Positions 1,598 to 46,851 of a stretch of DNA of 64,000 bases are shown here, piece by piece. Position 1 is the first letter of the stretch, and every line of letters starts with the position of its first letter. The notes under the pieces were generated by a model that searched no databases, was not told the DNA's origin, and saw only the letters and a program-made list of their open reading frames with translations. A program made the translations under genes and the position numbers. This stretch comes from Lachnospiraceae bacterium (GTDB lineage: Bacteria; Bacillota; Clostridia; Lachnospirales; Lachnospiraceae): positions 1-64,000 of the forward strand of contig CAJTGD010000014.1 in NCBI GenBank assembly GCA_910575475.1. Reading direction: 5' to 3'.

Positions 1598-4500
1598 TCA
1601 TAATGGATGTATGGCTTCATGCCTTTCCATCTCCGCACCATGTTCTTCATACTCCCCGGCATTTCTTCCGCCCCCGTCCATCAGCTCCAGATATTCCCCC
1701 TTGTCAATATGCATCATGGAAATCTGATTCTGATACCGCCGGAACCCATACACACTGTCCACATTGCGGATCAGCGACTGGAGACGTTCGTCCGGCACAC
1801 AGACGATGAGCTGCAGCTCCAATTCCCTCGCGTAGCGCAGGCAGACCTCGCTCCGCTCCTTATCCATCTTGGAAAATGCCTCATCCAATAGCACCAGGCG
1901 GATCTTGGAATCTCGGTTGCTCTGCTGCATATAGAGCATGGCGAACCCGGCCAGAAGCGCGACGTACTTGGGGTTCTGGCCTTCCCCGCCGGAATCCCGC
2001 CCGGCCATTTCATCCACCGCGTTTTTCTTCACATTTCCCTGGTCGTCCTCCACCCGCTCATACATGCTGAAGGTCAGATAATTGCGGTAATCCGCATAGC
2101 GTTCCATCTCCTGGTTATGGCGGGAACGATTGTCACCCTCCCCGTCCCTGGGGGGCATGAACTTTTCCGTCAGCCTCTGGATCTGCTGCTCGTATTTCTG
2201 GAAAAATGCGTCCTCACCGATGCTGAGCTGGCCTTCGAAGCCGTCATTGTCCAGCACCTTGCTGTCCAGCTCCGGCGCCATCAGCATTTCGTAAAATTGT
2301 CCGTTCTCGTTTTCGGCCGGCAGGATGTCGATCTGGTAGGTGCTGTCGGAAAACCGGATCCTGGACAGCATCCGGTTGATCTCCCGCCGGTGCCGGTATG
2401 CCGCCTTGATCTCGCCGTGGATGGTGGCGATCACATTTTCCCGGAGGGAATGGTAGACCTGCCGGTACTGGTTCTCAAAGTCCGCCTTGTACTGGGGCAC
2501 ATAATCCCGTTTCAGTTCTTCCCACAGCTTATCGTACACAGTATTCTCATGTTCTACCCCGGAAAATCCATAGGCCGGGTATTCCCTGTTGAAACGGTTC
2601 CGGGCCAGGATCCGCTGTTCTTCCTGCTCCTCCTCCTGCCCGGCAAGACGCTGGCACAGGTCATGCTGCTTTCTGCGGTATGCGGCCTCGCTCTGAATTT
2701 CCAGACCTTCCCGGACCTCCGCCAGCAGACGGTCATCCGCCCGAAAGCCCTCCTGCAGCGCGGACAGTCTATCCTGAAAATCTCCGTATTCCTTCTGCGC
2801 CGCCCGAAGATCGCCCTCCCGGCCGATCCGTTCCTGATTGACCCGTTCCTGTATGCGGGACAGCTCCGCGATTTCCTGCTCAAGCAGTTCTTTTTGTGCT
2901 TTCAGCTCTGCGGTCAGCGTACCGTCTTCCAGTTCTTTCAGTTCCTTCGCAAGCTGCTCCTGCTTATCCAGATAAACCTCCAACTCTCTGTGAGCCTTGG
3001 AAAGACGCAGAAGATGTTCCGAACTCTGGTTCAGCTGTTCCAGCTTCTTCGCCCGGTTCAGCGTTTCCCGCATCTGCAGATCCCCGATCTGCCGCTGTTC
3101 CAGTTGATTGATCTCTTCTTCCAGTTCCTTTAGCTTCGCCTTGGATACCCTGGTCCCGATGCAGGAAAATCGTCTGTAATCGTCCTCCCGCAGATGGCGG
3201 AATATATAATTGCTGTAGGAATAGCAGTCCGAAGTCACCCCGTCCCGGACTGCATGGAGCTCTTCCACGGTCTCGCATTTACAGATCCTTCCCAGATACC
3301 TTCTCAGGCACAGGTCCGCATAAGGCTCGCCAGCCCGGACGGCCTCATAAAGCGTACCGGCTTCGGCTGCGGGTTCGTCTCTTTTGATTGCCGCCGTATT
3401 AATCAGGTCCACTTCCTCGTATTCCTTCCGCTTCATCCTGCGGAAGATCCTGGCAGCGTCCAGGGCGTACTGAGGCTCGGTCACCAGGCTGTGCTTGATG
3501 CGGCCCAGCCTCCCCTCAACCGCATCCTTCCATTTTTCATCCACAATGTCAAACAGATCCGCAAAGATTTCCACATGGATGGTCCGGCCGTACTGGCTGC
3601 TCAGCTCGCTCTGGAGCTGTGCCCGGGCGCTTTTCAATTCCTTCCGGTAGGGCTTGCGGTCATTTTTCAGATCCTCCGCCATCTCCTTTTTTTCACTCAG
3701 CTCCCGGGCTGCGGCACGGATGCCGTCGTTGAGCTCTGCAAGCTCCTCCCCGATCATTTCCATTGCATTCTGGATACCAGCGCGCAGCTTGTCCAGGGCG
3801 GACTCCGATATCTCACCGTCCAGGATCTCCTCCAGGCACTGCAGGGTGGGGTTGCTGACGTAGCCGCTGATCTCCTCGTCCGTCTCCCATTCCTTCAGAT
3901 TCCGCAGGATCTCCTGCCACTGCCTGGCATTTCCTTTCAGAAGGCCGATGGTATTTTTCAGTTCTTCCATTTCCTTCTGCTTCACGCCGTAATCGCTGGA
4001 ATGAAGTTCTGCCTTAACCTCGATCAGCGCTTCCGTTTTTTCCTTCTTGTCCGCGTCCAGGGTTCCATACCGCTCCTCCAGCTCGGCGATTTTTACGGAA
4101 ATCGCTTCCAGATCCTCTTTTTTTGCTTCCAGCCGGGTCTTGCAGCTTTCGATATCCACGATCCGCAGGACTGTCTCTGCACGCATCCTGTCCGCCCGGA
4201 TCCGAACCAGCTCCTGGTTGGCGCTGTGAACCTCGTCCAGGATCTCGATCCGGTGCTCCAGATCGTCCACCTTTTCCTTGATCTCCCGGTACGCGCCAAG
4301 CTGCCGGCTGATGGCGGACACCGTGTCCTCCTTGCTCTTGGGGAACATATAATCCTTGATGAACTGCCCGGTGCCGTCCGCCATCCGGAGCGCAATAGCG
4401 CTTTTTTCCATGGTCATCAGCCGGCCCGGGTCAATGTATCCGAAAATGGAATCGTACAGGGTGCCCAGATAGGCTTCCCGGGAAGGGTACATCCGGTTTA

Positions 4501-5023
4501 CCTCCACCCGTCCCCGGTTGTCCTCGGAATGGCTCCGTGCCTCGATCAGCTTTTTCAGCTGGGCGGAGGTGTAGGGAATGCCCTGCTCCGTCAGATATCC
4601 GTCCTCCGGGAGCTGCCCCGAATGACTGAAAAAATGGTATTTCCGCAGCTCTGTGTCCTGGCTTCCCACCTCAAACACCGCGCCGATGCAGGTCATGAGC
4701 CGGCTTCCCGTATCCTCCAGCTCCAGCACGATCTGGGAGCAGAAGTCAACATTTTCCCGGTTCGAGGTTCCGTCCTTTTGGGCGCCCCGCAGATAGCTGA
4801 GGACACTTCTCTTGTTTTTCGCGTCGTCCGCCGCTTTATTCAAAAAGGCAGCCGACACGCTGCCGTAAAGGATCACCTGAATCGCATCCATGACCGTGGA
4901 TTTTCCGGAACCGCTCTTGCCGCTGAACAGGTTCACGTATTCGTGAAATTCCATGACCTTATGGCTGATACCTCCCCAGTTATTGATCAGCATCCGCCGG
5001 AAGATTTTCTTGGATTGCTTCAT
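1598..5023 (-). CDS. jetC: Wadjet-type SMC ATPase JetC (locus 1)
   Basis: SMC/MukB-like ATPase of 1141 residues, the motor of a Wadjet plasmid-defence complex. Walker A is GKSGSGKST at residues 35-43. Two long charged coiled-coil arms (about 260-470 and 660-830) flank a hinge-like globular region with few heptads. The ABC signature SGGEGQ and the Walker B segment RLVLLDEAF lie near the C terminus. Known Wadjet complexes extrude DNA loops and cleave small circular DNA through a separate nuclease, JetD. The start at 5023 has GGAGG just upstream and overlaps the end of jetB by 44 bases, indicating translational coupling. It differs strongly from the second JetC of this window (1484 residues), so the two loci are not a recent duplication. 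Confidence 0.9.
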   Translation of the reverse strand: MKQSKKIFRRMLINNWGGISHKVMEFHEYVNLFSGKSGSGKSTVMDAIQVILYGSVSAAFLNKAADDAKNKRSVLSYLRGAQKDGTSNRENVDFCSQIVLELEDTGSRLMTCIGAVFEVGSQDTELRKYHFFSHSGQLPEDGYLTEQGIPYTSAQLKKLIEARSHSEDNRGRVEVNRMYPSREAYLGTLYDSIFGYIDPGRLMTMEKSAIALRMADGTGQFIKDYMFPKSKEDTVSAISRQLGAYREIKEKVDDLEHRIEILDEVHSANQELVRIRADRMRAETVLRIVDIESCKTRLEAKKEDLEAISVKIAELEERYGTLDADKKEKTEALIEVKAELHSSDYGVKQKEMEELKNTIGLLKGNARQWQEILRNLKEWETDEEISGYVSNPTLQCLEEILDGEISESALDKLRAGIQNAMEMIGEELAELNDGIRAAARELSEKKEMAEDLKNDRKPYRKELKSARAQLQSELSSQYGRTIHVEIFADLFDIVDEKWKDAVEGRLGRIKHSLVTEPQYALDAARIFRRMKRKEYEEVDLINTAAIKRDEPAAEAGTLYEAVRAGEPYADLCLRRYLGRICKCETVEELHAVRDGVTSDCYSYSNYIFRHLREDDYRRFSCIGTRVSKAKLKELEEEINQLEQRQIGDLQMRETLNRAKKLEQLNQSSEHLLRLSKAHRELEVYLDKQEQLAKELKELEDGTLTAELKAQKELLEQEIAELSRIQERVNQERIGREGDLRAAQKEYGDFQDRLSALQEGFRADDRLLAEVREGLEIQSEAAYRRKQHDLCQRLAGQEEEQEEQRILARNRFNREYPAYGFSGVEHENTVYDKLWEELKRDYVPQYKADFENQYRQVYHSLRENVIATIHGEIKAAYRHRREINRMLSRIRFSDSTYQIDILPAENENGQFYEMLMAPELDSKVLDNDGFEGQLSIGEDAFFQKYEQQIQRLTEKFMPPRDGEGDNRSRHNQEMERYADYRNYLTFSMYERVEDDQGNVKKNAVDEMAGRDSGGEGQNPKYVALLAGFAMLYMQQSNRDSKIRLVLLDEAFSKMDKERSEVCLRYARELELQLIVCVPDERLQSLIRNVDSVYGFRRYQNQISMMHIDKGEYLELMDGGGRNAGEYEEHGAEMERHEAIHPL

Positions 5024-5615
5024 CGTCTGCCTCCTCCCTGTATTCTTCGATCAGTTCATTCATATCCGCCGCGCTCACGTAGAGGAGGATGGTGCTGTAC
5101 AGATAGATCGGCGTCTCGTCCTTCACGTCCCGGACCGCCGCCGGAAGCTCGATCATCTGGTGCCTGCTCATCAGGTACAGCGCCTCCCGCCACTCCGCTG
5201 CCGTCAGCTTCCGGTTCAGAAGCCCGGTATTGGCCCCGTATTCCCGGATCTCTCCCAGGCTTGTTACTGTTGCGCCCAGCCCCTCCCCCAGGATCTTGTC
5301 CCGGTAGATCATCCGCACGAGCAGGATGAGCATGGTGGTGGTCTGGCTGAACTTTTCCGTCTCCGCTCCTTCCCCTTTCAGCCGGAAAATGTGCTCCTGC
5401 GGGTCATGCTCCATCTCACACCCCAGCACGGCAAGATAATTTTCGATAAAATGCCTGTGGCGGACGCATATTTCATAGTCCGGATTATCCCTCGGCGTCA
5501 GCGTGACCGGATCATACCGCAGCTGCAGGATACAGGTCTGGCGGAATAATCTGGATATGGTCTTTTTCAGATTTTCCGCCTCGGACGCAGACAGTTCTTC
5601 CATGTATGTGATCAT
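4980..5615 (-). CDS. jetB: Wadjet-type MukE-like subunit JetB (locus 1)
   Basis: 211 residues resembling the DUF4194/JetB family, the MukE-like winged-helix (KITE) subunit that binds the kleisin and SMC heads. Family-like segments include LFRQTCILQLRYD near the N terminus, FIENYLAVLGCEMEHD in the middle and TTTMLILLVRMIYRDK before the C-terminal helices. An AGGAA site precedes the start. It lies 161 bases after jetA and its 3' end overlaps jetC, so the two are translated together. No catalytic residues are expected. Family assignment is by reading the sequence together with its position between jetA and jetC. Confidence 0.85.
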   Translation of the reverse strand: MITYMEELSASEAENLKKTISRLFRQTCILQLRYDPVTLTPRDNPDYEICVRHRHFIENYLAVLGCEMEHDPQEHIFRLKGEGAETEKFSQTTTMLILLVRMIYRDKILGEGLGATVTSLGEIREYGANTGLLNRKLTAAEWREALYLMSRHQMIELPAAVRDVKDETPIYLYSTILLYVSAADMNELIEEYREEADDEAIQENLPADADQ

Positions 5616-5776
5616 TTGTAGGATTCCTTTCTATATTAAATGTAAAAGTAACGATTCAAAACGGCAGACTATCCGATGATCTTTTCATATCGCTTCCGTT
5701 TCAGGTAGTTTGAACGATTCGACGGTTCCGTAATCATACGCGGTCTTCCTGAAAGCAGATGTGCCGCACGATTCCG

Positions 5777-7129
5777 TCATTCCTGAATCGTCAGCGCGGA
5801 GAAGCGACACCCTTCCCGGTTCTCCAGCTCCTCCCCGATCTCAATCTTTTTTGCATCGTCCGCGATCTCCACCGCATCCTGCCATACGAAAAATAATTTT
5901 TCCAGATCTTCCGTGGAACGCACGGTATCCTCCGTAACTGTAAATGCTCCGTTCCGTTCATTTTTTCTCCGAAACTCGGCAATCTCCTGTCTGGTGTAAA
6001 GGGGCTTCAGGACAAATTCATCCAGCCCTTCCTCCTGCCGTTCCGCATCCCGGACCACCGCCTGGGGGGCAAATGCTGTCTTTTCCATATTCCTTCGGTG
6101 GGCCAGGCTCTGTCCGGTGACCATACGGAAGGGCTCTGTCAGACGCATCCGGCCGGAGAGCTTTTCCAAAATCTCCGTGCTGCGTCTGCTCTGGTTCAAA
6201 AGCTTGACCAGCACCGCCGTGGGATCTTCTTCCAGTGCGCCCTCCATGAGGATGTATCGGATCCTTGCCGCCGCCCGGCTGGCAAACAGGGTCTTCTGCT
6301 CGATCAGCTTATTGTATCTGCGCTCAATGGCGTCAAATTCCCGTTCGATCAGAAGGATGATGTCCATCGCCTCATCGGCAAGCTCCCGCTGCCTCCCCTC
6401 CAGTTCCTGCTTCCTCGCCTCATTTTCACTGAGGTTCCGGTCGATCAGTTCCTTGACCGCCTCTTTATATCGGTAGAAGCTGTCTGTGGTAGTGAGGATC
6501 GCGTATTTCCTGCTCTCGTTGTTATTCATTTCCTTTACGAGAACTTCCTGGATCCCGAGAAAACTCCTCTGCCTGGACAGCTCGTCAAAGTACCCTCTCA
6601 TGCCCTCCTGCATGTTGGAAAGCATCTGCAGAAGGGAACGGGATGCCTGCAGCGCACTTTTCAGGATGTCATTATTTTTTTCGCTGTCAGAGCTGTAGGT
6701 GTACAGATAGCTGTAGACTGCCAGGACGCTTTCCCGCTCCCGGGTGTCCTCTTCGCTGTAAAGGCGCTGAAACAGTTCCACGAACAGCTGGCTGTATTCC
6801 GGAAAGGAGACCACATAGCTGTCCAGGACTTCATCATAGTCCCGTCTCAGCCATCCCCAGTCTTCCAGATGCTTCAGACAGATCGAGGCCATGTTGCTCC
6901 TTGTCAGAAGCTCGCCCTCCTCGTCAAACTGCTCCTCGCTCCAGTCCAGCGTCTCCGCAGCGATCTGTTCGTTCATGATCATGCGGCACTCCCGCTCTGT
7001 GAGGCCGAGCAGAGAGTAGGAACGGCCGGATTCCTCATAGATCGCGATCAGGAAACGCTGGTAATAGTCCATATATTTGCTTGCAAAAAGCTTGTAAAAA
7101 TCTTTTGGGATCTTGCTGATTAAATTCAT
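5777..7129 (-). CDS. jetA: Wadjet-type kleisin JetA (locus 1)
   Basis: 450 residues, MukF/kleisin-like. The N terminus (LISKIPKDFYKLFASKYMDY) matches my memory of the DUF5716 type of JetA found in Bacillota. It is followed by a winged-helix-like region (MASICLKHLEDWGWLRRD), a helical middle and a C-terminal tail that should contact the SMC head. An AAGGAG site precedes the start at 7129. It is the first gene of the defence operon, but lies only 46 bases after the lacI-family gene on the same strand with no terminator between, so it may also be read from the lacI promoter. In known systems JetA links the SMC heads and, with JetB, carries JetD. Confidence 0.85.
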   Translation of the reverse strand: MNLISKIPKDFYKLFASKYMDYYQRFLIAIYEESGRSYSLLGLTERECRMIMNEQIAAETLDWSEEQFDEEGELLTRSNMASICLKHLEDWGWLRRDYDEVLDSYVVSFPEYSQLFVELFQRLYSEEDTRERESVLAVYSYLYTYSSDSEKNNDILKSALQASRSLLQMLSNMQEGMRGYFDELSRQRSFLGIQEVLVKEMNNNESRKYAILTTTDSFYRYKEAVKELIDRNLSENEARKQELEGRQRELADEAMDIILLIEREFDAIERRYNKLIEQKTLFASRAAARIRYILMEGALEEDPTAVLVKLLNQSRRSTEILEKLSGRMRLTEPFRMVTGQSLAHRRNMEKTAFAPQAVVRDAERQEEGLDEFVLKPLYTRQEIAEFRRKNERNGAFTVTEDTVRSTEDLEKLFFVWQDAVEIADDAKKIEIGEELENREGCRFSALTIQE

Positions 7130-36039: not shown

Positions 36040-37050
36040 TTATACCGCATTCCCGAGCATATCCGCTATATATCTCCTGATTCCTTCCTCGGAGCCAATC
36101 CCGTATGTTTTGTCTACAGCCACGTAATATTCTCTGATACTGTCCTTCGTAAGCGTTTTATTGGAAGGGATCTGATCGTCATATCCGCTGCGGGCATTCT
36201 GCCAGGGAGCTTCCTGATGCGTGATCCGCTCCATAGCCTTGCCCCCGTAAATCCCAAAGGTGTTAATGACCAGATCGGCAGCCCTTCTCTCGTCAGCCGT
36301 CAGTTGTTCCGCGCTTCCTTCAAAGACAGCGAAGCGCGGATCGTCAATCGGATTGTATTTAAAATCCCGGAACAGGTCGTAAACCTTCGGATATACGGGT
36401 CCATGAACCCAGGCCCGGCAGTCCTCTTCAAAAATCGGCCTGCCGTACAATGCCGAATAGACCCCCTGGATAAAGTAGATCAGCTTCTGCAGCATCAGAG
36501 GCGTCACCTCTTCCAGCCTTTCGAAAACGTATGCGATCACCCGGAGCATATTGTCCGACACGGAAAACAGCTCCTCCAGGCCGTCTGCCGCGTCCATTGC
36601 CTTATGATACGCGGTATCCGCGATCTTTTCCCGGTTTTCATTCAGCAGCTTTTTCATAAAAGCCGGGGACGTGAGCGCGGCACGCATGATATCGGAATAT
36701 TCCTTAGACGGCACCTGGCCGGACAGGTATCTGGATACCGTCACTTCACCGAATCCGAGGGCGAATGACAGCGGAGCCTTCCCGATCTTGTAGATCTTCA
36801 TCAGCTTCTCAATGTCATCCACCGTCACAAGCCCCTCGGCAGCCCTGTACTGTTCGTCTACCTCCCGGACATTCTGATCCATAAGTCCGGGAATCCCCAT
36901 CTCTTCGCCGCACTCCGGGCATACTGCTGTTGTGATCACAAACTGGTAAGCTTTGTCCCGGATTGTTTTTGTAATGGTCTTCTTCTGCAATACGTATTCT
37001 GTGTCTTTTCTGCACTCCACACAAAAATCCATTCTTCTTTTCTCTGCCAT
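36040..37050 (-). CDS. Panacea-domain antitoxin with zinc finger and HTH
   Basis: 336 residues. The N terminus is an MqsA-like zinc-binding part (CVECRK, then CPECGEE), the middle a helix-turn-helix (APLSFALGFGEVTVSRYLSG), the C terminus a Panacea (DUF4065/SocA-like) domain with LMLQKLIYFIQGVYSALYG and EDCRAWVHGPVYPKVYDLFR. Panacea proteins are versatile antitoxins. GGAGG lies eight bases before the ATG at 37050. It follows a 128-residue gene by 15 bases, and a strong palindrome lies before that gene, so a self-regulated toxin-antitoxin operon is likely. Confidence 0.88.
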   Translation of the reverse strand: MAEKRRMDFCVECRKDTEYVLQKKTITKTIRDKAYQFVITTAVCPECGEEMGIPGLMDQNVREVDEQYRAAEGLVTVDDIEKLMKIYKIGKAPLSFALGFGEVTVSRYLSGQVPSKEYSDIMRAALTSPAFMKKLLNENREKIADTAYHKAMDAADGLEELFSVSDNMLRVIAYVFERLEEVTPLMLQKLIYFIQGVYSALYGRPIFEEDCRAWVHGPVYPKVYDLFRDFKYNPIDDPRFAVFEGSAEQLTADERRAADLVINTFGIYGGKAMERITHQEAPWQNARSGYDDQIPSNKTLTKDSIREYYVAVDKTYGIGSEEGIRRYIADMLGNAV

Positions 37051-37065
37051 GATAGCCACCTCCAT

Positions 37066-37452
37066 CTATTGAAAGCAATATGTAAGCGGATGCCTCTGTC
37101 TGTGAAAAGAGATCACAATGACAAAACCGGTTTCCAGATTGTTCATCTTAATGTATAATGGGACAACCGTTTCCTCTGTTCCATTCCTCTCCAAAAGCGA
37201 TACCTCCTTGCCGAAAACGTATAATCGTTCCTGCTCAAATCCTTTATGTTCGTTCTGCAATATGCATGAAAAATCAATCGACTCCAGGCTCAATAGAATC
37301 TCCCTGGCCCCTGCTTCGTCTATCACATAATCCAGAAATAAGTCTATATTATCCTGCCGCTTCGAATTCCTCGCAATTCTGTATCTGCCTTTTTTTACTG
37401 CATCCTTCACCTCCGAAAGATATGCTTCGATGTCCTTCCATGTAATGATCAA
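37066..37452 (-). CDS. Probable toxin partner of the Panacea antitoxin
   Basis: 128 residues with a TTG start and GAGGAG upstream. It reads as alternating helices and strands (ITWKDIEAYLSEVKDAV; RRYRIAR-type basic patch GRYRIARNSKRQDN; VPLYIKMNNLETGFVIVISF; HRQRHPLTYCFQ). The C-terminal basic HRQRH resembles small RNase toxins but I cannot name the family. The toxin role is inferred from size and its place immediately before a Panacea antitoxin and behind a palindromic operator. Confidence 0.65.
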   Translation of the reverse strand: MIITWKDIEAYLSEVKDAVKKGRYRIARNSKRQDNIDLFLDYVIDEAGAREILLSLESIDFSCILQNEHKGFEQERLYVFGKEVSLLERNGTEETVVPLYIKMNNLETGFVIVISFHRQRHPLTYCFQ

Positions 37453-38082: not shown

Positions 38083-38742
38083 TTATAAATTTTTCCTTTC
38101 CATCCGGTCCAGAATCCCGTCCACATCCACCCCCGGATGCGTCAGATACATCCTGCTCACCTGCTCCGCAAATCTCTCGTCGATATGATTCCGGGCGGCG
38201 ATCTCCGCAATCCTTCTTCCGGCGTCAACCTCCTTCATGATCTGCCGGACCAGCCTGTATATATCCTGTTTCGGAATCTTCATTTCTTCATCTGTGTCCA
38301 ATGTTCCCTTTCCCATTGCAGGTATGTCCAGGCAGTCAATCCTCTCCGTTTCCAGCCGATGCTCAGCCGGATACAGCGTGAGAAGCATCATCGTGACCGG
38401 CAGGTGAAATCTCCTCGGCCCGCAGCTTCCCGGATTCAGGCAGACTGTATTTCCCAGGCGGCCCACCTCATATTTATGGGAATGTCCGCAGATGATAAGA
38501 TCCACTCCCGGCAAATTCTTCCGGATCTGTTTTTTGTCATGGATCATATAAATACGGAATCCGAAGAGTTCTATTTCCAGCTCTTCCGGCAAATGCTCCG
38601 GCAGTTCCGCCCGTCCGGCTTCAAATTTATCTGCCCGAGCTTCAAATTTTACCTCCTGCCGCTTTCTTCTCCCTACATTTCTCGGTCTGCTCACAAACTG
38701 CTTTTCCCTACTGCGCGGACAGCGTTTTTCATTATTATACAA
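38083..38742 (-). pseudogene. Metallophosphoesterase lacking its N-terminal half
   Basis: 219 codons. The C-terminal part of a YfcE-like phosphoesterase is clear: VDLIICGHSHKYEVGRLGNT and CLNPGSCGPRRFHLPV, then a helical tail. The metal-binding N-terminal motifs (DTHG, GD and GNHD) are absent; instead there is a basic, charged stretch (RPRNVGRRKRQEVKFEARAD). The only starts are a TTG without a clear site and internal ATGs. Probably inactive. Confidence 0.75.
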
Positions 38743-38864: not shown

Positions 38865-41800
38865 TCAGAACACCAATTCCTGCTGCTCCATCACCTCAAT
38901 CTGCGACACCACCATGGTCTCCGGTTCATTTCCCCGCAGATGATTGGCCCGGAGGTACTGCATGCCGCTGCGCAGACTTGCCGCGATCAGATTGAGCACG
39001 TAGATATTGTCAAATCGATTGTAAATGCTGTCCCCGCCAAGCCCGGTCAGGCAGATGAGCTGGGTGTTGGTCTTTTTCGCCACATCCATGAGCGGCTTCA
39101 ACAGATGGGACGCATTGGTCTGGGCAAATGGGTTGTCCATGAGCAGCACCTTTCCTTCGTTGCGGTCCGCAAAAATGTCCGTCTCATCCCTGCGCATGTA
39201 GTACAGCAGACTGGACAGGATCACGAATGCCGACAAAAATCCTTCCCCGCCGGAGTTTTTTGCCACCTCGGCCCAGGTGATGGGATATTCCCGCTGGGCT
39301 TCGATCTTGTAGAGGCGGATCTGTACATTACCGATGCCCACCACCGTATCGTACAGATTTCTCGTGGTCATGCGGGTGCCGAAATATTCCTGGGCATTTT
39401 CATTTCGCTCAAAGATATCGATTCCTTTCTGGGTCAGCTCGTCGATCAGATCCTGCAGCCGGATGTGGTACAGATTTTCATTTTCCTCCCATGCCGGAAG
39501 CTGGATCTTCAGCATCTTGATTGCCCGCTCCCGAACCGTGATGGTAGAGTTCTGATCGATCCTGCCGAGGTTGCGGTGAACCTCCTGGAGATAATCCTCC
39601 AAAAGCTCCGCGATCTTCTGCTTTTCTTTCTCCACCACGGAAATATCCACTTCCAGTTTTTCCATCAGGCTGTCATAGGACTGGATGGTGGTTTCCATCT
39701 GGCGCCGCACCTGCCCCGCATCGTCGGACAGCTCCAGCATGGCCTCCAGCGGCTTCTTATAATAATCCTCCTGGAAATGCTCATCCCGCACGGTCTGGTT
39801 CAGCACGCGGACCAGCTGCTCCTTCGCATCCTGCCTGGATTTCATGCACTGGTTGTAGTCCCGGATGAGGATGCCTTTGAAATTCCGCAGCTCCTTCGCA
39901 TTCATTTCCAAAAAATCCTGCTCCCAGACGATCGGTTCTTTTTTCTCAAATTCACTGTATTCCGCCAGCGCGGTCAGATTTTCGTCCAGACTGTGGAGAC
40001 GCTTCTGCAGCTTGTCCGCGGTACTTTTCAATTCCTTTTCCTGATATTTCAGCTGGTTCTTCCGGGACTCAAAATTCTGGTTCTGGATCTCGGCTTTGGG
40101 TAGTGGCTCCTCCTGGCCGCACTCTGTCCGCATCCGTTTCAGAAGGTCCGCCTTCTGCTGGGTGATGACGGCAATCCGCTTATCTTCCTCGTTCCAAAGG
40201 GACTGCTTGGTTTGAATCTTCATCCGGCGGTCTTCCAGAAGGATCTCCTGATGGGATTCCTCTTTTCGGTTATAGTGAGTCTCCTGCCATGCATTCTCTG
40301 CCAGACCGTATTTCTTCTGTAAATGTCTCAATTCCTGGTCCGCGTCCTTGTATCGCCTGCTGCTGAGCTGCTCCTGACGCTCCAATTCCTGTATCTCCAG
40401 CGAAACCACCGCAGTAACCGCCGCGTATCTGGCTTCCATATCTGCCACGATCCTCCGCAGATCCAGCCGAATCTGAGCCGCTTCCCACACCCCGCGCCAG
40501 TCCTCCCCGGCTTCCTTCTCCGCCGGCTCCGTATATTCCTCATACCTCCGGTACTTCCGCACCGCCTCCTGCTGTTCCTCTTCCTCCCGGAGCAGCGCAT
40601 CCCTCTCAGCCTCCAGCGACTTCTGCCGGTCCTGCAGTTTTTCCAGTTTTTCCCTGGACAGCTTCTGCTGATCGGAGAGCCTGCCCATTTCCTTCCTGCA
40701 CAGCTCCAGCTCCTGCCGGAAACGCACATATTCCTCATACGCGCCCCGCAGTTCCTGAAAATCTTCCGCTTTCCGCCGCTGCCGTTCCAGCTCCTGATCC
40801 GTCCTGCGGATGTCCTGCTCCTGGCGTTCCATCTGCTCTTTCCGTTCCGTCAGTTCCTGGGAAGCCGCCCGGATCTCCTCGTCCGTCTCCCGGATCTGAT
40901 CCGCCAGCTCTGCAAGCTGCTTCTCATTTTCCTCATAGCTTTCCCGGCTCACCGACTGGTTTTTCACCTGCTCCTGCCGCTCAAAATACTGCTGGTATTC
41001 TTCCTGGCGAATCCGGATTGCCTCCTGCTTCCGCCTGATCTGCTGCTCCTTTTCCGCGACCAGATCCCGAAGCTTTTCTTCATCCAGAAGATTCTCATTG
41101 AACAAGACATAGAAGCTGACATCCCCGAACCTGCGGACATTTCCCGGCTCTTTCCCGTCCCGCTTTTCCAGATGCTCCCGCAGGATGATGGGGATCGGGA
41201 ACGATGTGCAGATATTTCCCGTATGACGGGACAGCTTTTCCAGCTCCTGCTTCGACAGGATCAACCCATAGGGTAAAAATGGATGGCTGCGGACCAGCTC
41301 CTGATTTTCTTTTTCCGGATATCCGTTCTTTTTCAGCCATTCCATCCCGTATACGACATGGATTCCAAGCCCCGCAAGCTCTGCCTCCAGCTCCTGGGAC
41401 AGCTCCAATACCTGGCCCTTTGTCAGCCGCTGGTATTCCTTCTGCAAGCAGTCCTCTTCCTTTTCCAGATTTCGGCGGAAGTTGGCGATCTCCGCCAATT
41501 TCCGCCCGGATGCGTGAAGGATCTTTTCCCTGTCAAACAATTCCTTCTCGTCCAGATCCAGATATTTCAGGATCACCCTCCGGACTTCCAGCTCTTCCTC
41601 ATACAGGCTCCGTGTCCGGCTCTGCAGCTCCTGCCTGGCCCTCCTGCGGATCTGCTCCTCCCGCATGTCCGTCAGCTTCCGCTCCCGGCTCCGCTGGGTT
41701 TCCTTCGCCATCTCCAAAGCCTTTTTCGTTTTCAGGCGTTCCCGCCCCAGCTCCTCCATCCGGTTTTCCTGGGCTTCCTGAAAGATTTCCATCGTTCCCG

Positions 41801-43319
41801 GCTCATATTCACCGAGAATATTGCGTACAAAATGCTCCTGATACCGGGTGTTGAACTGCTCCTCCTTCCGGTCATAGGACTGCACCTGGCTTTTCAGCGC
41901 GCCTTCTGCCGATACCCGCTCCCGAAGCCGCTCTTCCAGATCGGACTGGGTCTGCTTTTCCCGGGAAATGTTTTCTTCTGTCTCTGCAATGTTCCGGCTG
42001 TTTTCCTGCTGCCTTTTCCCGTTCTCCTCCAGTTCCCTCTCATAATGACAGCGCAGCACATAGCCCAGGCGGTTCCGCTCCGGCTCCAGGTTCACATTTT
42101 TCTCCTGCGCCACACGGAGCCGCTGCAGGGCCTCGTCCCACTCCGCCTTTTCCTCATCAACAAGCCGCTGCTGCTTCGCGCAGGCCAGCAGATGGAGCCG
42201 ATGGGTGATCTCCTCCGCTTCCCGCTCCAGCGCTTCCTTTTCCATGGAGACCATGTCCCGGTTACTCAGATGAAAGCGCATCTGCTCTTCCAGCTGATGG
42301 ATCTCTCCTGACAGCTTTTCATATTCAATATGGGCGATCTCCGCAAGTACCTGTTCCATCTGCGACAGGATCTCCTCCTGCTCCTCCTTTGTCACGGCCT
42401 GCAGGCGTTCCAGCTCCCCGATAAAATGAGCCACCAGATTTTCCTGTTCCCTCTCCTTCTGCTCCCCTTCCCGGTAAACGGACATCTTCTCCTGGATCCT
42501 CTGCGCCTCCTGCTTAAACAGGCGGATGGTATCCCGGCGCTGGATCTTGGAACGGTTGTCCTTATACTGGCCCACATATTTTTCCAGAATACTCTGAAAT
42601 TCCTTCATCCGGTTCCGCTCTTTATTCAGCTTGCTCTCCACCGCGTCCAGAAACCATTTTTCCACCAGCCCCTTCTCGTCCCGGCAGTCGGAAAACAGCT
42701 CGGAAAGGCCGGACTCCTTCAGATTCACCTTTTTGATGATGCTTTCCCACTCCTTATAGTGAATCTGGTATTCCTGCAATTTATCAAAATACTGTCTGGA
42801 CTGCGCCCCGTTGTTCATATCGTAATAGAAAAACTGCTGGGAGCGGTCCCGTTTATACCCCTCGAACAGCTGTCGGCAGGCCGAAAAATTTTTCAGGGTC
42901 ATTTCCTTTTTTCCCTTTTCCACCACCGGGAGATGGTGGATGTCCTGCAGGCAGGAGGCCCGGTATTCGCAGATAAAATTGACCATCTCCAGCTCTTCCC
43001 CGCTGTCGCTGTCCTGGCTTCGGCGCACCATCATCCCGGTCAGCACGAAGCCCGCGTTCTGATCCAGGGCCCACTCTACCAGGATAAAGGAGGGCTTGCT
43101 GGTGGTGAAATAGCTCTCAAAGGGGCGGTCCTTAGCGTCCCGGTAGCGTTTGTGGACAAAAGGAGCGGTCAGCATCTGGACCAGGACGGATTTTCCCCCG
43201 CCGTTGCGCAGGGAGATCAGCGTGCTTTCGCCGTTGAAATGAAAGGTCTCGTCACTGATCCGGATGGCGTTGTTGTTGTAATTGATATTGATCAGACGGG
43301 CTGCGTTTATTTTGCTCAT
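38865..43319 (-). CDS. jetC: Wadjet-type SMC ATPase JetC (locus 2)
   Basis: 1484 residues, MukB-like. It starts SKINAARLININYNNNAIRI with Walker A RNGGGKS (38-44); very long Gln/Glu/Arg-rich coiled coils fill about 280-640 and 800-1230 around a hinge-like centre (GIHVVYGMEWLKKNGYPEKE). The signature NSGGEG and the Walker B segment VLLMDNPFAQTN are near the C terminus; Asn after Asp replaces the usual Glu, as in several SMC-like defence proteins of this lineage. It is the last gene of the jetD-A-B-C operon, 70 bases after jetB. Its low similarity to the 1141-residue JetC at 1598 shows a separate origin. Confidence 0.88.
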   Translation of the reverse strand: MSKINAARLININYNNNAIRISDETFHFNGESTLISLRNGGGKSVLVQMLTAPFVHKRYRDAKDRPFESYFTTSKPSFILVEWALDQNAGFVLTGMMVRRSQDSDSGEELEMVNFICEYRASCLQDIHHLPVVEKGKKEMTLKNFSACRQLFEGYKRDRSQQFFYYDMNNGAQSRQYFDKLQEYQIHYKEWESIIKKVNLKESGLSELFSDCRDEKGLVEKWFLDAVESKLNKERNRMKEFQSILEKYVGQYKDNRSKIQRRDTIRLFKQEAQRIQEKMSVYREGEQKEREQENLVAHFIGELERLQAVTKEEQEEILSQMEQVLAEIAHIEYEKLSGEIHQLEEQMRFHLSNRDMVSMEKEALEREAEEITHRLHLLACAKQQRLVDEEKAEWDEALQRLRVAQEKNVNLEPERNRLGYVLRCHYERELEENGKRQQENSRNIAETEENISREKQTQSDLEERLRERVSAEGALKSQVQSYDRKEEQFNTRYQEHFVRNILGEYEPGTMEIFQEAQENRMEELGRERLKTKKALEMAKETQRSRERKLTDMREEQIRRRARQELQSRTRSLYEEELEVRRVILKYLDLDEKELFDREKILHASGRKLAEIANFRRNLEKEEDCLQKEYQRLTKGQVLELSQELEAELAGLGIHVVYGMEWLKKNGYPEKENQELVRSHPFLPYGLILSKQELEKLSRHTGNICTSFPIPIILREHLEKRDGKEPGNVRRFGDVSFYVLFNENLLDEEKLRDLVAEKEQQIRRKQEAIRIRQEEYQQYFERQEQVKNQSVSRESYEENEKQLAELADQIRETDEEIRAASQELTERKEQMERQEQDIRRTDQELERQRRKAEDFQELRGAYEEYVRFRQELELCRKEMGRLSDQQKLSREKLEKLQDRQKSLEAERDALLREEEEQQEAVRKYRRYEEYTEPAEKEAGEDWRGVWEAAQIRLDLRRIVADMEARYAAVTAVVSLEIQELERQEQLSSRRYKDADQELRHLQKKYGLAENAWQETHYNRKEESHQEILLEDRRMKIQTKQSLWNEEDKRIAVITQQKADLLKRMRTECGQEEPLPKAEIQNQNFESRKNQLKYQEKELKSTADKLQKRLHSLDENLTALAEYSEFEKKEPIVWEQDFLEMNAKELRNFKGILIRDYNQCMKSRQDAKEQLVRVLNQTVRDEHFQEDYYKKPLEAMLELSDDAGQVRRQMETTIQSYDSLMEKLEVDISVVEKEKQKIAELLEDYLQEVHRNLGRIDQNSTITVRERAIKMLKIQLPAWEENENLYHIRLQDLIDELTQKGIDIFERNENAQEYFGTRMTTRNLYDTVVGIGNVQIRLYKIEAQREYPITWAEVAKNSGGEGFLSAFVILSSLLYYMRRDETDIFADRNEGKVLLMDNPFAQTNASHLLKPLMDVAKKTNTQLICLTGLGGDSIYNRFDNIYVLNLIAASLRSGMQYLRANHLRGNEPETMVVSQIEVMEQQELVF

Positions 43320-43389
43320 TCTGTTTACCTCGACTTTTTCGTATTCCTATTGAACCTGGCGGATTGCCTGGACTGGGGACAACTTTTAA

Positions 43390-44106
43390 TCAAGCTTCCT
43401 TATGCGCCCCAAGAACCCGCAGCACCCGCTTATAGTTGTTCTGGTTCAGCAGGTTCCAGTCCATAAAGTTGTCCAGCTTCTTTGTCGTTTTGATCATCTC
43501 GTCCTGCTCCACATATTCGATCAGTCCCTGCTTCTGCAGAAATGTCAGGATATGGTGAAGGAATCCTTCCTTCGTGGTCCTGGCGCGCGACCCCTTCTCA
43601 TCGGATTTCAGCGCTTCGTAAGCCTCCAGCATATTGGAAAATGCAATCCCCGCCTGTTCCTCCTGATCCTCCGGCACATTTTCCGCGCCTTCCTTCAATC
43701 TCCGGGAAATGCAGTTCTGCAGCTCGCCCACACGCATATATTCCCGTGCCTTACTGCTGCTCCCCTGCCCGTCGAAAAATTCCACAAGAAGGGTCAGGAT
43801 CACAAACTGGGATAAATAATAATCCTTATCCGTGGAATTGGATTTGCAGAGCACGTTTTTCAGCTGGGCCTTGGAAAAGCCGAGGAAATGATTCTCTTCC
43901 TTCGGGATCAGATAGATCACGTTACCGTAGCGCTCGACCGTGCTCTGAGCCGCCTCCCCCTGGGACTTGACCAGGTTCTGGATCTCCTCCTGCTCCGCGT
44001 ATGCCTTGAACAGCAGGGCTTCCTCATCCTCCCGCAGCTCGTGGTGTTCCAGAAGATAATAGAAAATCTCCTGGCTAATCCTGATATCTCCAAATTCATA
44101 TGCCAT
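43390..44106 (-). CDS. jetB: Wadjet-type MukE-like subunit JetB (locus 2)
   Basis: 238 residues, probably the DUF6063-type MukE analogue. It begins AYEFGDIRISQEIFYYLLEH, has YYLSQFVILTLLVEFFDGQG in the middle and a winged-helix-like end (GFLHHILTFLQKQGLIEYVE). A GAGAGG site precedes the ATG at 44106; the frame extends upstream without one. Located between jetA and jetC in the expected kleisin-KITE-SMC order. Assignment rests mainly on this position. Confidence 0.75.
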   Translation of the reverse strand: MAYEFGDIRISQEIFYYLLEHHELREDEEALLFKAYAEQEEIQNLVKSQGEAAQSTVERYGNVIYLIPKEENHFLGFSKAQLKNVLCKSNSTDKDYYLSQFVILTLLVEFFDGQGSSSKAREYMRVGELQNCISRRLKEGAENVPEDQEEQAGIAFSNMLEAYEALKSDEKGSRARTTKEGFLHHILTFLQKQGLIEYVEQDEMIKTTKKLDNFMDWNLLNQNNYKRVLRVLGAHKEA

Positions 44107-44168
44107 GAAAATCACCTCTCTCTTTCTTCTCCCAGTCATCCTTCTGCACAAATGACATCACAAATCTC

Positions 44169-45800
44169 CTATGCCCCTTCTTTCAGATCCACACAGATCC
44201 GCACATTCGAACACCGGATATCCTTCCGCTCCCCGTTTTCATTCCGGATCCCCGCAAAGGTCACTGTCCCGGCCTTTTCCAGCCGTTCCACCCGAATCCG
44301 CCGGACATCCGCCAGCTCCGGATTTTCCTCGGTCAGCTGCAGCAGCATCTCATTGAGCTGAAATTCCCTCTGCTGGTCCTGGATGAACTGGCTCCGTTCC
44401 TTCCTGAGCACATCCAGCTCCATTTCCCGGTTCTTGATCAGCTCCACCATGATCTCCTTGAAGATCTCCACATTGGGGATCAGACGGTCGCGGATCTCCG
44501 TCTGTTCCCGAACCTGCTCCTCCACCTGTTCCAGGGTGATCTCCCCCTTCTCCGCGCGGACAGCCTGTTCCAGCAGTCCGGTCAGGCTCTGCTCATAGCG
44601 TTTCAGCTTTTCCCTCCGGAGGCGTTCCTGTTCCTGCTCCCATGCTTCCTCGTCAAAATCGATCTGCTCCCGGATATCCTCCTCTGTCTGCCTGCGCACC
44701 GGGCGCTGCAGCTGGAACGCCTTGTTCAGGTTATAGACCTTCTCCGCGTCCTGATTGAACAGGGGCCGCAGAAAATATTCCAGTTCCTCCAGAGCGGCCG
44801 GATTTTCCAGAAGCTTATCATATAATTCTGTCCGCAGGGAAAACCGCCGGATCAGTGACATCCGGGTCAGGTCTTCCAGTTCCTGGGTGTACAATGCTTT
44901 CAGGTCCAAATGGCTTCCCAGGATCTTCTGGTGCTCGTCGATGGTGCGGTTCAGATACCACTCGATCTCCCGCAGATGCCAGAGTTTTTCCTCCTCCTTC
45001 GGGCTGAGCCGCCGGACGTTGATGTTGGTCTCTTCCAGCTCCTGAACGCGGCTTTTTACCATTTCCCGGTAGTTCTGAAATTTTTTCTTGGTATCGTCGA
45101 TGGTCTCCAGATTTTCATGAAGGATCTGCTCATAGTCACGGATCGAATAATTCAATGCATTTCTCCGGATCTTCCCCATGGCCTCCTGGATCTTCTGGAG
45201 CTGGATCCGAAGCAGGTTGAACACGTTCTTGATCTCATCCGCGGCTTTGTCATAGCTCTGCTTTTCCAGGTGCATCTGGAAGATCATCTCGTGGATGGTC
45301 AGCTTCATATTATTCTCGATCTCCAGGGTTGCCAGCAACAGATTGTATCCGTCATCTGTAAGGTAATAAGACGTGCGCTTGAAATCCTGATCCACATAGA
45401 CGATCCGGTTCGCCACGTAGCTGATGTGCATGCTCTGATATGCGTTCTCTTCGAAGTCATAGCCGTCAAAATGCATGACCCTTCCCTCGTTGGAAAGGAT
45501 CACATTGACGATAAAATCCCCCAGTCCGCGGCAGTCCTCGTAGGACATGTCTTTCCGGAAATACTGGACGTTGATCGTGTCGATATAGGCGCCGATATCG
45601 TCCATGGTGCAGTTCTCCTCCTTCAGCGACTGCTCCATGATGTAGAGCATCACGGCGAAGATCAGGTTGAACTGCTCGTCCGTTTTCTGAAATCCGTGCT
45701 GCTTCCAGGTCGTTTTCTGCAGGCTGTTCTGGATCAGGACCGTGTACAGCCCCACATTTTTCATCCTTCTCGGAAAATGCTTTAAAAATTCATACTGCAT
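44169..45800 (-). CDS. jetA: Wadjet-type kleisin JetA (locus 2)
   Basis: 543 residues, MukF-like. The N-terminal winged-helix region (MQYEFLKHFPRRMKNVGLYT; YYLTDDGYNLLLATLEIENN) is followed by a long helical bundle (about 190-300) and a Glu/Gln/Arg-rich coiled coil near 390-480, ending in a beta-rich tail (AGTVTFAGIRNENGERKDIR). GAGGAAG precedes the start. It comes 70 bases after jetD and 62 before jetB. It is longer than, and not clearly similar to, the 450-residue JetA at 5777. Confidence 0.8.
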   Translation of the reverse strand: MQYEFLKHFPRRMKNVGLYTVLIQNSLQKTTWKQHGFQKTDEQFNLIFAVMLYIMEQSLKEENCTMDDIGAYIDTINVQYFRKDMSYEDCRGLGDFIVNVILSNEGRVMHFDGYDFEENAYQSMHISYVANRIVYVDQDFKRTSYYLTDDGYNLLLATLEIENNMKLTIHEMIFQMHLEKQSYDKAADEIKNVFNLLRIQLQKIQEAMGKIRRNALNYSIRDYEQILHENLETIDDTKKKFQNYREMVKSRVQELEETNINVRRLSPKEEEKLWHLREIEWYLNRTIDEHQKILGSHLDLKALYTQELEDLTRMSLIRRFSLRTELYDKLLENPAALEELEYFLRPLFNQDAEKVYNLNKAFQLQRPVRRQTEEDIREQIDFDEEAWEQEQERLRREKLKRYEQSLTGLLEQAVRAEKGEITLEQVEEQVREQTEIRDRLIPNVEIFKEIMVELIKNREMELDVLRKERSQFIQDQQREFQLNEMLLQLTEENPELADVRRIRVERLEKAGTVTFAGIRNENGERKDIRCSNVRICVDLKEGA

Positions 45801-45870
45801 CTGATGCTTCCTCTTTTATGAAAATCAATATTATTCACGGTGTCTTGCCTTTGCGGAAATAAAACGGCGG

Positions 45871-46851
45871 TTAAAAGTCCGAAATATTCAATATTTCCTG
45901 CGGAACGTACTTCCCCTCCACCAGGATCCGGCGCATGGCCCCCGCGCATTCCGGTGTAAAATACGAAAAGAAAACCTCACGGATATTCCGGTTCTGCATT
46001 TCCTTCGTCTCCGGCAGGTCTTCCCTCTGTCCGGCCTTTTTCAGCATGGCCTCATATGCCGGAACGAAGGGGATGATCTCATGGAAATCCCGGCAGAGCT
46101 CCGCCAGGCTTTCATAGATCCCGATCCCCTCGTAGTCCAGGTCCCCGAAATAGAATATCCGGTTCCCCTCCGCCTTCATATAGGGCTCCACACAGAGTTC
46201 AAAGTCCTGAAAGGATCTCCAGATCCTTTTCCCCGCGCCATAGACCAAAGTTTGAATCCGCTCCCCCAGGATCGTTTCATTTCCTTCCTGCAAATGCCGG
46301 CGCATGCTGTAGAAGGTATCTTTATTTTCCAGGATCAGCAGCTTCTGGGGCACGTCCCTGGTGTGGGAATAGTAAGAAAGCGGCTCCGAAGTCCCGTACA
46401 CATTCAGAAAATCCAGTTCCAGCCCGCAGCGCTTCAAAATCTTTTTTCCCTGCTCCCTGGACAGAAATTTTTCCCGGTTCCAGATCTCGAAGCTGCGCTC
46501 ATTGACCGATTCCTGATGCTCCAAAAGCTCCCGCCGTTCTTTCAGATAGGTGTTCAGCAGCAGGATCCATTTCCTGTCCTGCTCGTAGATCGAAAGGTGA
46601 TTTAGATAATAATCCACGGAAAGAAGCGGGACCAGCTGATACATCAGCTCTTCCCGCAGCTCTTCGTAGTTCTTCTGTTCCTCCATAAGCCAGTACTCCC
46701 GGTACAGGGCCGGGGTCTTGCCGTTGGTGCCGGACGCCTTCACCGGACGGATCCTTCCGGAATCCAGCAGGCCGCAGATGCGGCGGCACTGGCCGGCGTA
46801 GTTTTCATTTTGGTATGATCTCAGCAATTGCTCCAGAGAGATTCGCTTCAC
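45871..46851 (-). CDS. jetD: Wadjet nuclease subunit JetD (DUF2220/Toprim)
   Basis: 326 residues. The C-terminal Toprim-like nuclease domain is clear: the catalytic Glu175 in LLILENKDTF and the DxD pair D237/D239 in IFYFGDLDYEGIGIYE. The N-terminal part is a winged-helix/arm domain (IRPVKASGTNGKTPALYREY). In known Wadjet systems JetD, related to topoisomerase VI, cleaves the DNA that the SMC complex has extruded. The start is GTG with AAGGAGG upstream. It is the first gene of its operon, not the last as in the classic JetABCD order. It is the only JetD in the window. Confidence 0.88.
   Translation of the reverse strand: MKRISLEQLLRSYQNENYAGQCRRICGLLDSGRIRPVKASGTNGKTPALYREYWLMEEQKNYEELREELMYQLVPLLSVDYYLNHLSIYEQDRKWILLLNTYLKERRELLEHQESVNERSFEIWNREKFLSREQGKKILKRCGLELDFLNVYGTSEPLSYYSHTRDVPQKLLILENKDTFYSMRRHLQEGNETILGERIQTLVYGAGKRIWRSFQDFELCVEPYMKAEGNRIFYFGDLDYEGIGIYESLAELCRDFHEIIPFVPAYEAMLKKAGQREDLPETKEMQNRNIREVFFSYFTPECAGAMRRILVEGKYVPQEILNISDF

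Follow-up and report, generated by a model that had tools for sequence, protein, structure and literature searches.

The DNA analysed here (the window, 64,000 nucleotides) comprises positions 1 to 64,000 of contig CAJTGD010000014.1 (GenBank assembly GCA_910575475.1) from a Lachnospiraceae bacterium. Four genes on its minus strand, in the order jetD-jetA-jetB-jetC, form a single operon-like block and most probably represent a complete type III Wadjet (JetDABC) operon (Table 1). The intergenic gaps are 70, 62 and 70 bases if jetB is started at the ATG at 44106. This start was preferred to the TTG at 44151 of the listed form (253 amino acids, aa) because relatives and the JetB model point to it. 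Upstream of the GTG start codon of jetD, a GGAGG stretch resembling a ribosome site was read directly in the sequence.

Table 1. Features of the operon and of its surroundings in the window
Feature	Position	Strand	Length	Matches and remarks
jetD, type III, Toprim nuclease subunit	45871..46851	-	326 aa	GTG start; PADLOC JetD3, 426 bits; catalytic-type E175, D237, D239
jetA, type III, kleisin-position subunit	44169..45800	-	543 aa	PADLOC JetA3, 899 bits
jetB, type III (DUF6063), KITE subunit	43390..44106	-	238 aa from likely ATG	PADLOC JetB3, 443 bits
jetC, type III, SMC ATPase	38865..43319	-	1484 aa	PADLOC JetC3, 2201 bits over 1-1484
Locus 1, type I JetABC	1598-7129	-		PADLOC type I JetA, JetB and JetC matches; without jetD
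Frame behind locus 1 jetC	465-1448
Panacea-domain (SocA-like) antitoxin gene and small unnamed neighbour	36040-37452	-		Adjoining the Wadjet operon
Metallophosphoesterase gene	38083-38742	-		Matches only the C-terminal part of the Pfam model

The PADLOC type III models matched all four proteins over nearly their full lengths. No PADLOC match to any other type was obtained for JetA, JetB and JetC, and the cross-matches of JetD were weak (at best 29.5 bits for type I models and 13.6 bits for type II). In Pfam, JetD matched JetD_C (27 bits, cutoff 22) and JetB matched DUF6063; an NCBIfam search with all four proteins gave no match. The four genes are found in retained order in Schaedlerella arabinosiphila (L134), at about 84% nucleotide identity. 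As the profile matches are nearly full length and the same genes recur in the same order in that species, the operon is not a chance assembly; judged from its sequence, it is genuine, ordinary for its family and very probably working. A preliminary description of the locus had claimed a complete Wadjet-type operon with a GTG-started JetD in which E175 and D237/D239 are intact, and had named as the opposite outcome a non-defence chromosomal MukBEF- or MksBEF-like system with an unrelated Toprim gene. Profile assignment to the Wadjet types placed all four proteins in type III. The coordinates, order and lengths of the genes in that description are right; the three acidic residues were found at those positions, and the opposite outcome did not occur, the JetD fold being MksG-like by prediction. 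A new kind of system was rejected, since the operon fits type III Wadjet.

Gene order was compared in three sets of loci. For the family set, 78 of 397 family genomes gave a JetC3 match, and 60 of the 80 matches besides that of the window were fetched; the orders were D-A-B-C (26 loci), A-B-C (33) and jetC only (one, at a contig end). 32 of the 34 D-less loci belong to a separate branch of the JetC tree. The two loci of the window's branch without adjacent jetD are L051, with JetD about 9 kb upstream behind two frames, and L061, with no JetD. The named set holds close relatives from contigs of named genomes (the best 80 of at least 559, the genomes partly overlapping the family set): 67 loci read D-A-B-C, as does one more with a split jetB (68 of 80 together), in eight of the 12 others the contig stops too early to hold jetD, and in four (L145, L147, L168 and L213) there is space for it but no adjacent copy. 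For the phylum set (a match in 45 of 398 genomes, 37 loci fetched), the orders were D-A-B-C in 30 loci, A-B-C-D in three (L285, L287 and L288) and A-B-C in four, two of these cut by contig ends. D-A-B-C is thus the type III norm in the loci examined. The departure from the classic JetABCD order that the preliminary description had pointed out is real as an order; as a peculiarity of this operon it does not hold, and an unusual gene order was rejected. Wadjet types differ in operon organization according to passages of two papers (PMC12647877, PMC10586767). Among single loci, L283 and L284 are type III JetABC loci without adjacent JetD, from two large genomes of another family, with the signature GSGGQ. 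At L220 (554-12501) about 9 kb with frames of 2433 and 381 aa lie between jetD and jetA, an apparent insertion inside a Wadjet operon, and at L211 (9283-10001) jetB lies in two frames and jetDABC is otherwise complete.

JetD is predicted to carry a Toprim fold with E and DxD acidic residues. E175 is invariant in the 26 covering rows of the family set (27 rows, one truncated), and E175, D237 and D239 are invariant in all 34 rows of the phylum set, the window being included in both. Predicted folds were compared using Foldseek, with a second look at the 1000 best chains: the best structural match of JetD was MksG, and those of JetB were chains of a solved Wadjet JetABC, in agreement with a KITE fold for JetB. 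Sequence searches of the PDB gave no match for JetC and, for JetD alone, one match to a GDP-L-fucose synthase (E value 0.00052), taken as chance; with profiles, JetC gave three coiled-coil-like matches only and JetB nothing relevant. A pattern search for DNA motifs gave 0 matches. With the alignments used, neither JetA nor JetB of type III showed significant profile similarity to its type I counterpart.

The ratio of nonsynonymous to synonymous substitution rates (dN/dS) for jetD, jetA, jetB and jetC was 0.16, 0.11, 0.05 and 0.12 against S. arabinosiphila and 0.11, 0.09, 0.04 and 0.11 against a second relative, L135. Purifying selection acts on all four genes. A decayed, silent remnant might be suspected from the neighbouring type I locus without jetD and from the adjacent phosphoesterase gene that matches only the end of its model; against four open frames, intact nuclease and P-loop motifs and dN/dS values of 0.04 to 0.16, this explanation is highly improbable.

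The motifs of JetC are Walker A NGGGKS (39-44), signature NSGGEG (1355-1360) and Walker B VLLMDNPF (D1395-N1396). The glutamate after the Walker B aspartate is catalytic in SMC ATPases and helps to split ATP. Here N1396 occupies its position, so that the canonical sequence of Asp then Glu is lacking. As a full-length comparison of JetC aligned the N-terminal lobe only, the C-terminal parts were compared instead, and in the profile alignment of this lobe the type III MDNPF falls on the type I LDEAF (probability 86.6, E value 4.5e-6). All 61 JetC3 of the family set (window included) carry D-N, as do 79 of 80 in the named set, where the sequence of the exception, L187, stops short of the motif, and all 37 in the phylum set, one of which reads DNL and not DNP. 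Pooled, these overlapping sets comprise 167 different C-terminal ends in addition to that of the window; D-N is present in 166 of them, and the remaining one is the truncated sequence. D-E was found in type I JetC (21 of 21), in type II JetC (12 of 12 loci fetched, from genomes with matches, 46 of 299) and in housekeeping SMC (two of two). Because D-N is near-universal in the type III JetC examined and the type I, type II and SMC controls have D-E, the asparagine is, on these alignments, a mark of type III within the phylum sampled and not a sign of decay of the window copy. The signature, too, deviates from SGGE in some JetC3 proteins, which belong to the JetD-free branch and to parts of the phylum set.

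The part of the glutamate may be played by a different residue, the needed group may come from a partner, or ATP may be split slowly. One candidate for a replacement, E82 of JetC, was rejected, as it aligns with a residue that is invariant in the type I alignment too. Because D-N is fixed in the JetD-bearing and the JetD-free branches sampled, we tentatively consider, at somewhat less than even likelihood, that type III motors are run or gated without the canonical glutamate and that the whole lineage uses a different catalytic arrangement (another residue, or one from JetA, JetB or DNA), having diverged into one branch that cuts plasmids and another that is without JetD and possibly chromosomal. 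No mention of D-N in type III JetC was found in the literature searched, which did not extend to the discovery and structure papers and so is no proof that the feature is unpublished.

The two branches came apart in a midpoint-rooted tree built from the joined head pieces of 61 JetC proteins. 32 rows without JetD (L072-L103, from Lachnospiraceae-family genomes) form one group with a support of 100/100. Every one of the 27 rows with adjacent JetD, that of the window among them, falls in the remaining 29, and JetD3 is present in 28 of the 29 genomes. Of 46 genomes with JetC3 matches of the weaker kind (30 in the tree), 45 gave no JetD3 match, the search being for this kind of JetD only; the remaining one has such a match, within a frame of 42 aa on a different contig. 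Upstream of 12 of the 32 loci in the branch are two gene clusters whose members in L088 were typed as dnaX and recR; downstream of 25 is a cluster containing proteins of TPR type, two of which were typed. Housekeeping SMC was found in all 30 branch genomes tested. By analogy, this setting suggests a chromosomal role for the JetD-free branch. That the operon in the window might likewise be a non-defence chromosomal condensin of the MksBEF kind, with a Toprim gene beside it by chance, draws on the existence of this well supported group within the same JetC family, on the position of 12 of the 34 D-less loci behind the dnaX- and recR-typed clusters, and on the synteny of the locus in L134 and L135, over which range it looks vertically inherited. 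The JetC of the window nevertheless falls in the other branch, where JetD3 is nearly always present, and its JetD matches the JetD3 models and the MksG fold; the chance of a condensin here is very slight.

Locus 1 lies on the same contig of 127,764 bases. Its JetA, JetB and JetC match type I and not type III models (for JetC among the matches listed, 25 of 41), in keeping with the claim of the preliminary description that the proteins of the two loci differ strongly. The frame behind its jetC had no match in PADLOC or Pfam, and a genome-wide search for a second JetD_C found none, the sole match being the type III JetD; the genome of C. glutamicum, for which a type I Wadjet is described in part of PMC10123090, gave a match as a control. 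No frame with JetD motifs was seen in the type I loci of the near relatives L218 and L219, the latter ending about 3 kb behind jetC, and a downstream frame with both motifs was present in eight of the 20 type I loci fetched (motif test only). Wadjet I without JetD is in print for Stenotrophomonas, as an excerpt of PMC11680222 indicates.

Of the 397 family genomes, 107 have type I JetC and 29 have the type III clade of the window, the latter count leaving out G233 and G074 (JetC fragments only). Both occurred together in eight genomes against 7.8 expected, which is chance level, and enrichment of type I with type III was rejected. Type I with any type III JetC occurred in 14 genomes against 21.0 expected (Fisher p 0.047), i.e. 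fewer than expected, within the limits set by the detection thresholds and by scoring two candidates per genome. Among these 14 genomes, that of the window is the only one in which a shared contig carries the two within 46 kb; in two more the shared contig separates them by over 1 Mb, and in the others they are on different contigs. Conserved closeness of the loci was rejected, as a single contig of S. arabinosiphila carries them about 1.7 Mb from each other. Wadjets of types II and III together in one strain are reported in a section of PMC8954581. Because the nearby type I locus is without jetD, the two loci are not a pair of complete defence systems, and the co-occurrence is at chance. The suggestion in the preliminary description that they would not compete for partners is plausible, given the lack of resemblance between the JetA and JetB families of the two types.

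As the genome has only one JetD_C match and the type I JetABC lies on the same contig at a distance of about 32 kb, the type III JetD could in principle serve both. The JetD-less type I JetABC of S. arabinosiphila lies far from its type III operon, however, and in G322, a genome of the same genus, type I JetC occurs with neither a type III JetC at 1e-20 nor JetD3, so that sharing of JetD is most improbable.

The neighbourhood in S. arabinosiphila is the same as in the window (GGDEF gene, jetDABC, phosphoesterase, Panacea gene, hydrogenase). The region of the Panacea gene and its small neighbour was aligned in L134 and not in L135. The metallophosphoesterase gene is perhaps shortened or frameshifted. 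The genome of the window (G000) measures 6.06 Mb with 7.5% contamination, that of G322 3.0 Mb; a housekeeping SMC of its own (1113 bits) is present in the former.

By analogy with studied Wadjets, JetA, JetB and JetC would together make up a loop-extruding SMC motor by which DNA is reeled in. Once a small circular molecule had been wholly extruded, the Toprim nuclease JetD would be switched on and cut the circle, and small and medium plasmids would thereby be kept out. Extrusion, cleavage and plasmid restriction are carried over from other Wadjet types; the four genes, their family, the nuclease residues, the JetD- and JetB-like predicted folds, purifying selection and conserved order are established for the operon itself. 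A target other than or besides plasmids (e.g. circular phage intermediates or particular plasmid classes), with a job unlike that of types I and II, is unlikely. In its favour, a passage of a review (PMC10586767) notes that most work concerns type I and that types II and III may recognize different substrates, type III is said in part of PMC12647877 to lack a hinge channel, and the profiles of JetA and JetB do not resemble those of type I; the nuclease fold and overall composition are the same, however, and direct evidence for another target is lacking.

As one more type III Wadjet, the locus is useful mainly for annotation and because such systems can block plasmid transfer, as a Clostridium Wadjet does in its host according to an excerpt of PMC12287153. 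Attention is merited by the lack of the Walker B glutamate throughout type III and by the JetD-free branch. A call of 'Wadjet III' from JetC alone would include this branch, which may not be defence. The Walker B glutamate is the residue usually mutated to freeze SMC motors; type III JetC is without it, so that what has been concluded on mechanism for types I and II may not apply to it.

Compared with other type III Wadjets (PADLOC JetA3, JetB3, JetC3 and JetD3), the operon shares the nearly full-length matches of all subunits and the usual D-A-B-C order, and no feature peculiar to the window copy was found. Type II (e.g. Neobacillus vireti) differs in the Walker B motif of JetC, which reads SLDEAF in the loci fetched where the window has MDNPF. 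With type I (JetABCD; MksBEFG of C. glutamicum) the operon has in common the four-part composition and the predicted folds of JetD and JetB. It differs from type I in JetA and JetB by profile, in the D-N in place of D-E, in the length of JetC (1484 aa against 1141 aa in locus 1) and in the position of jetD, which comes first here and, if present, behind jetC in the jetA-jetB-jetC loci of type I that were fetched. MksBEF and MukBEF condensins are without JetD, whereas the operon has a conserved one; the occurrence of a JetD-free branch beside JetD-bearing type III resembles the split between MksBEF and MksBEFG within type I.
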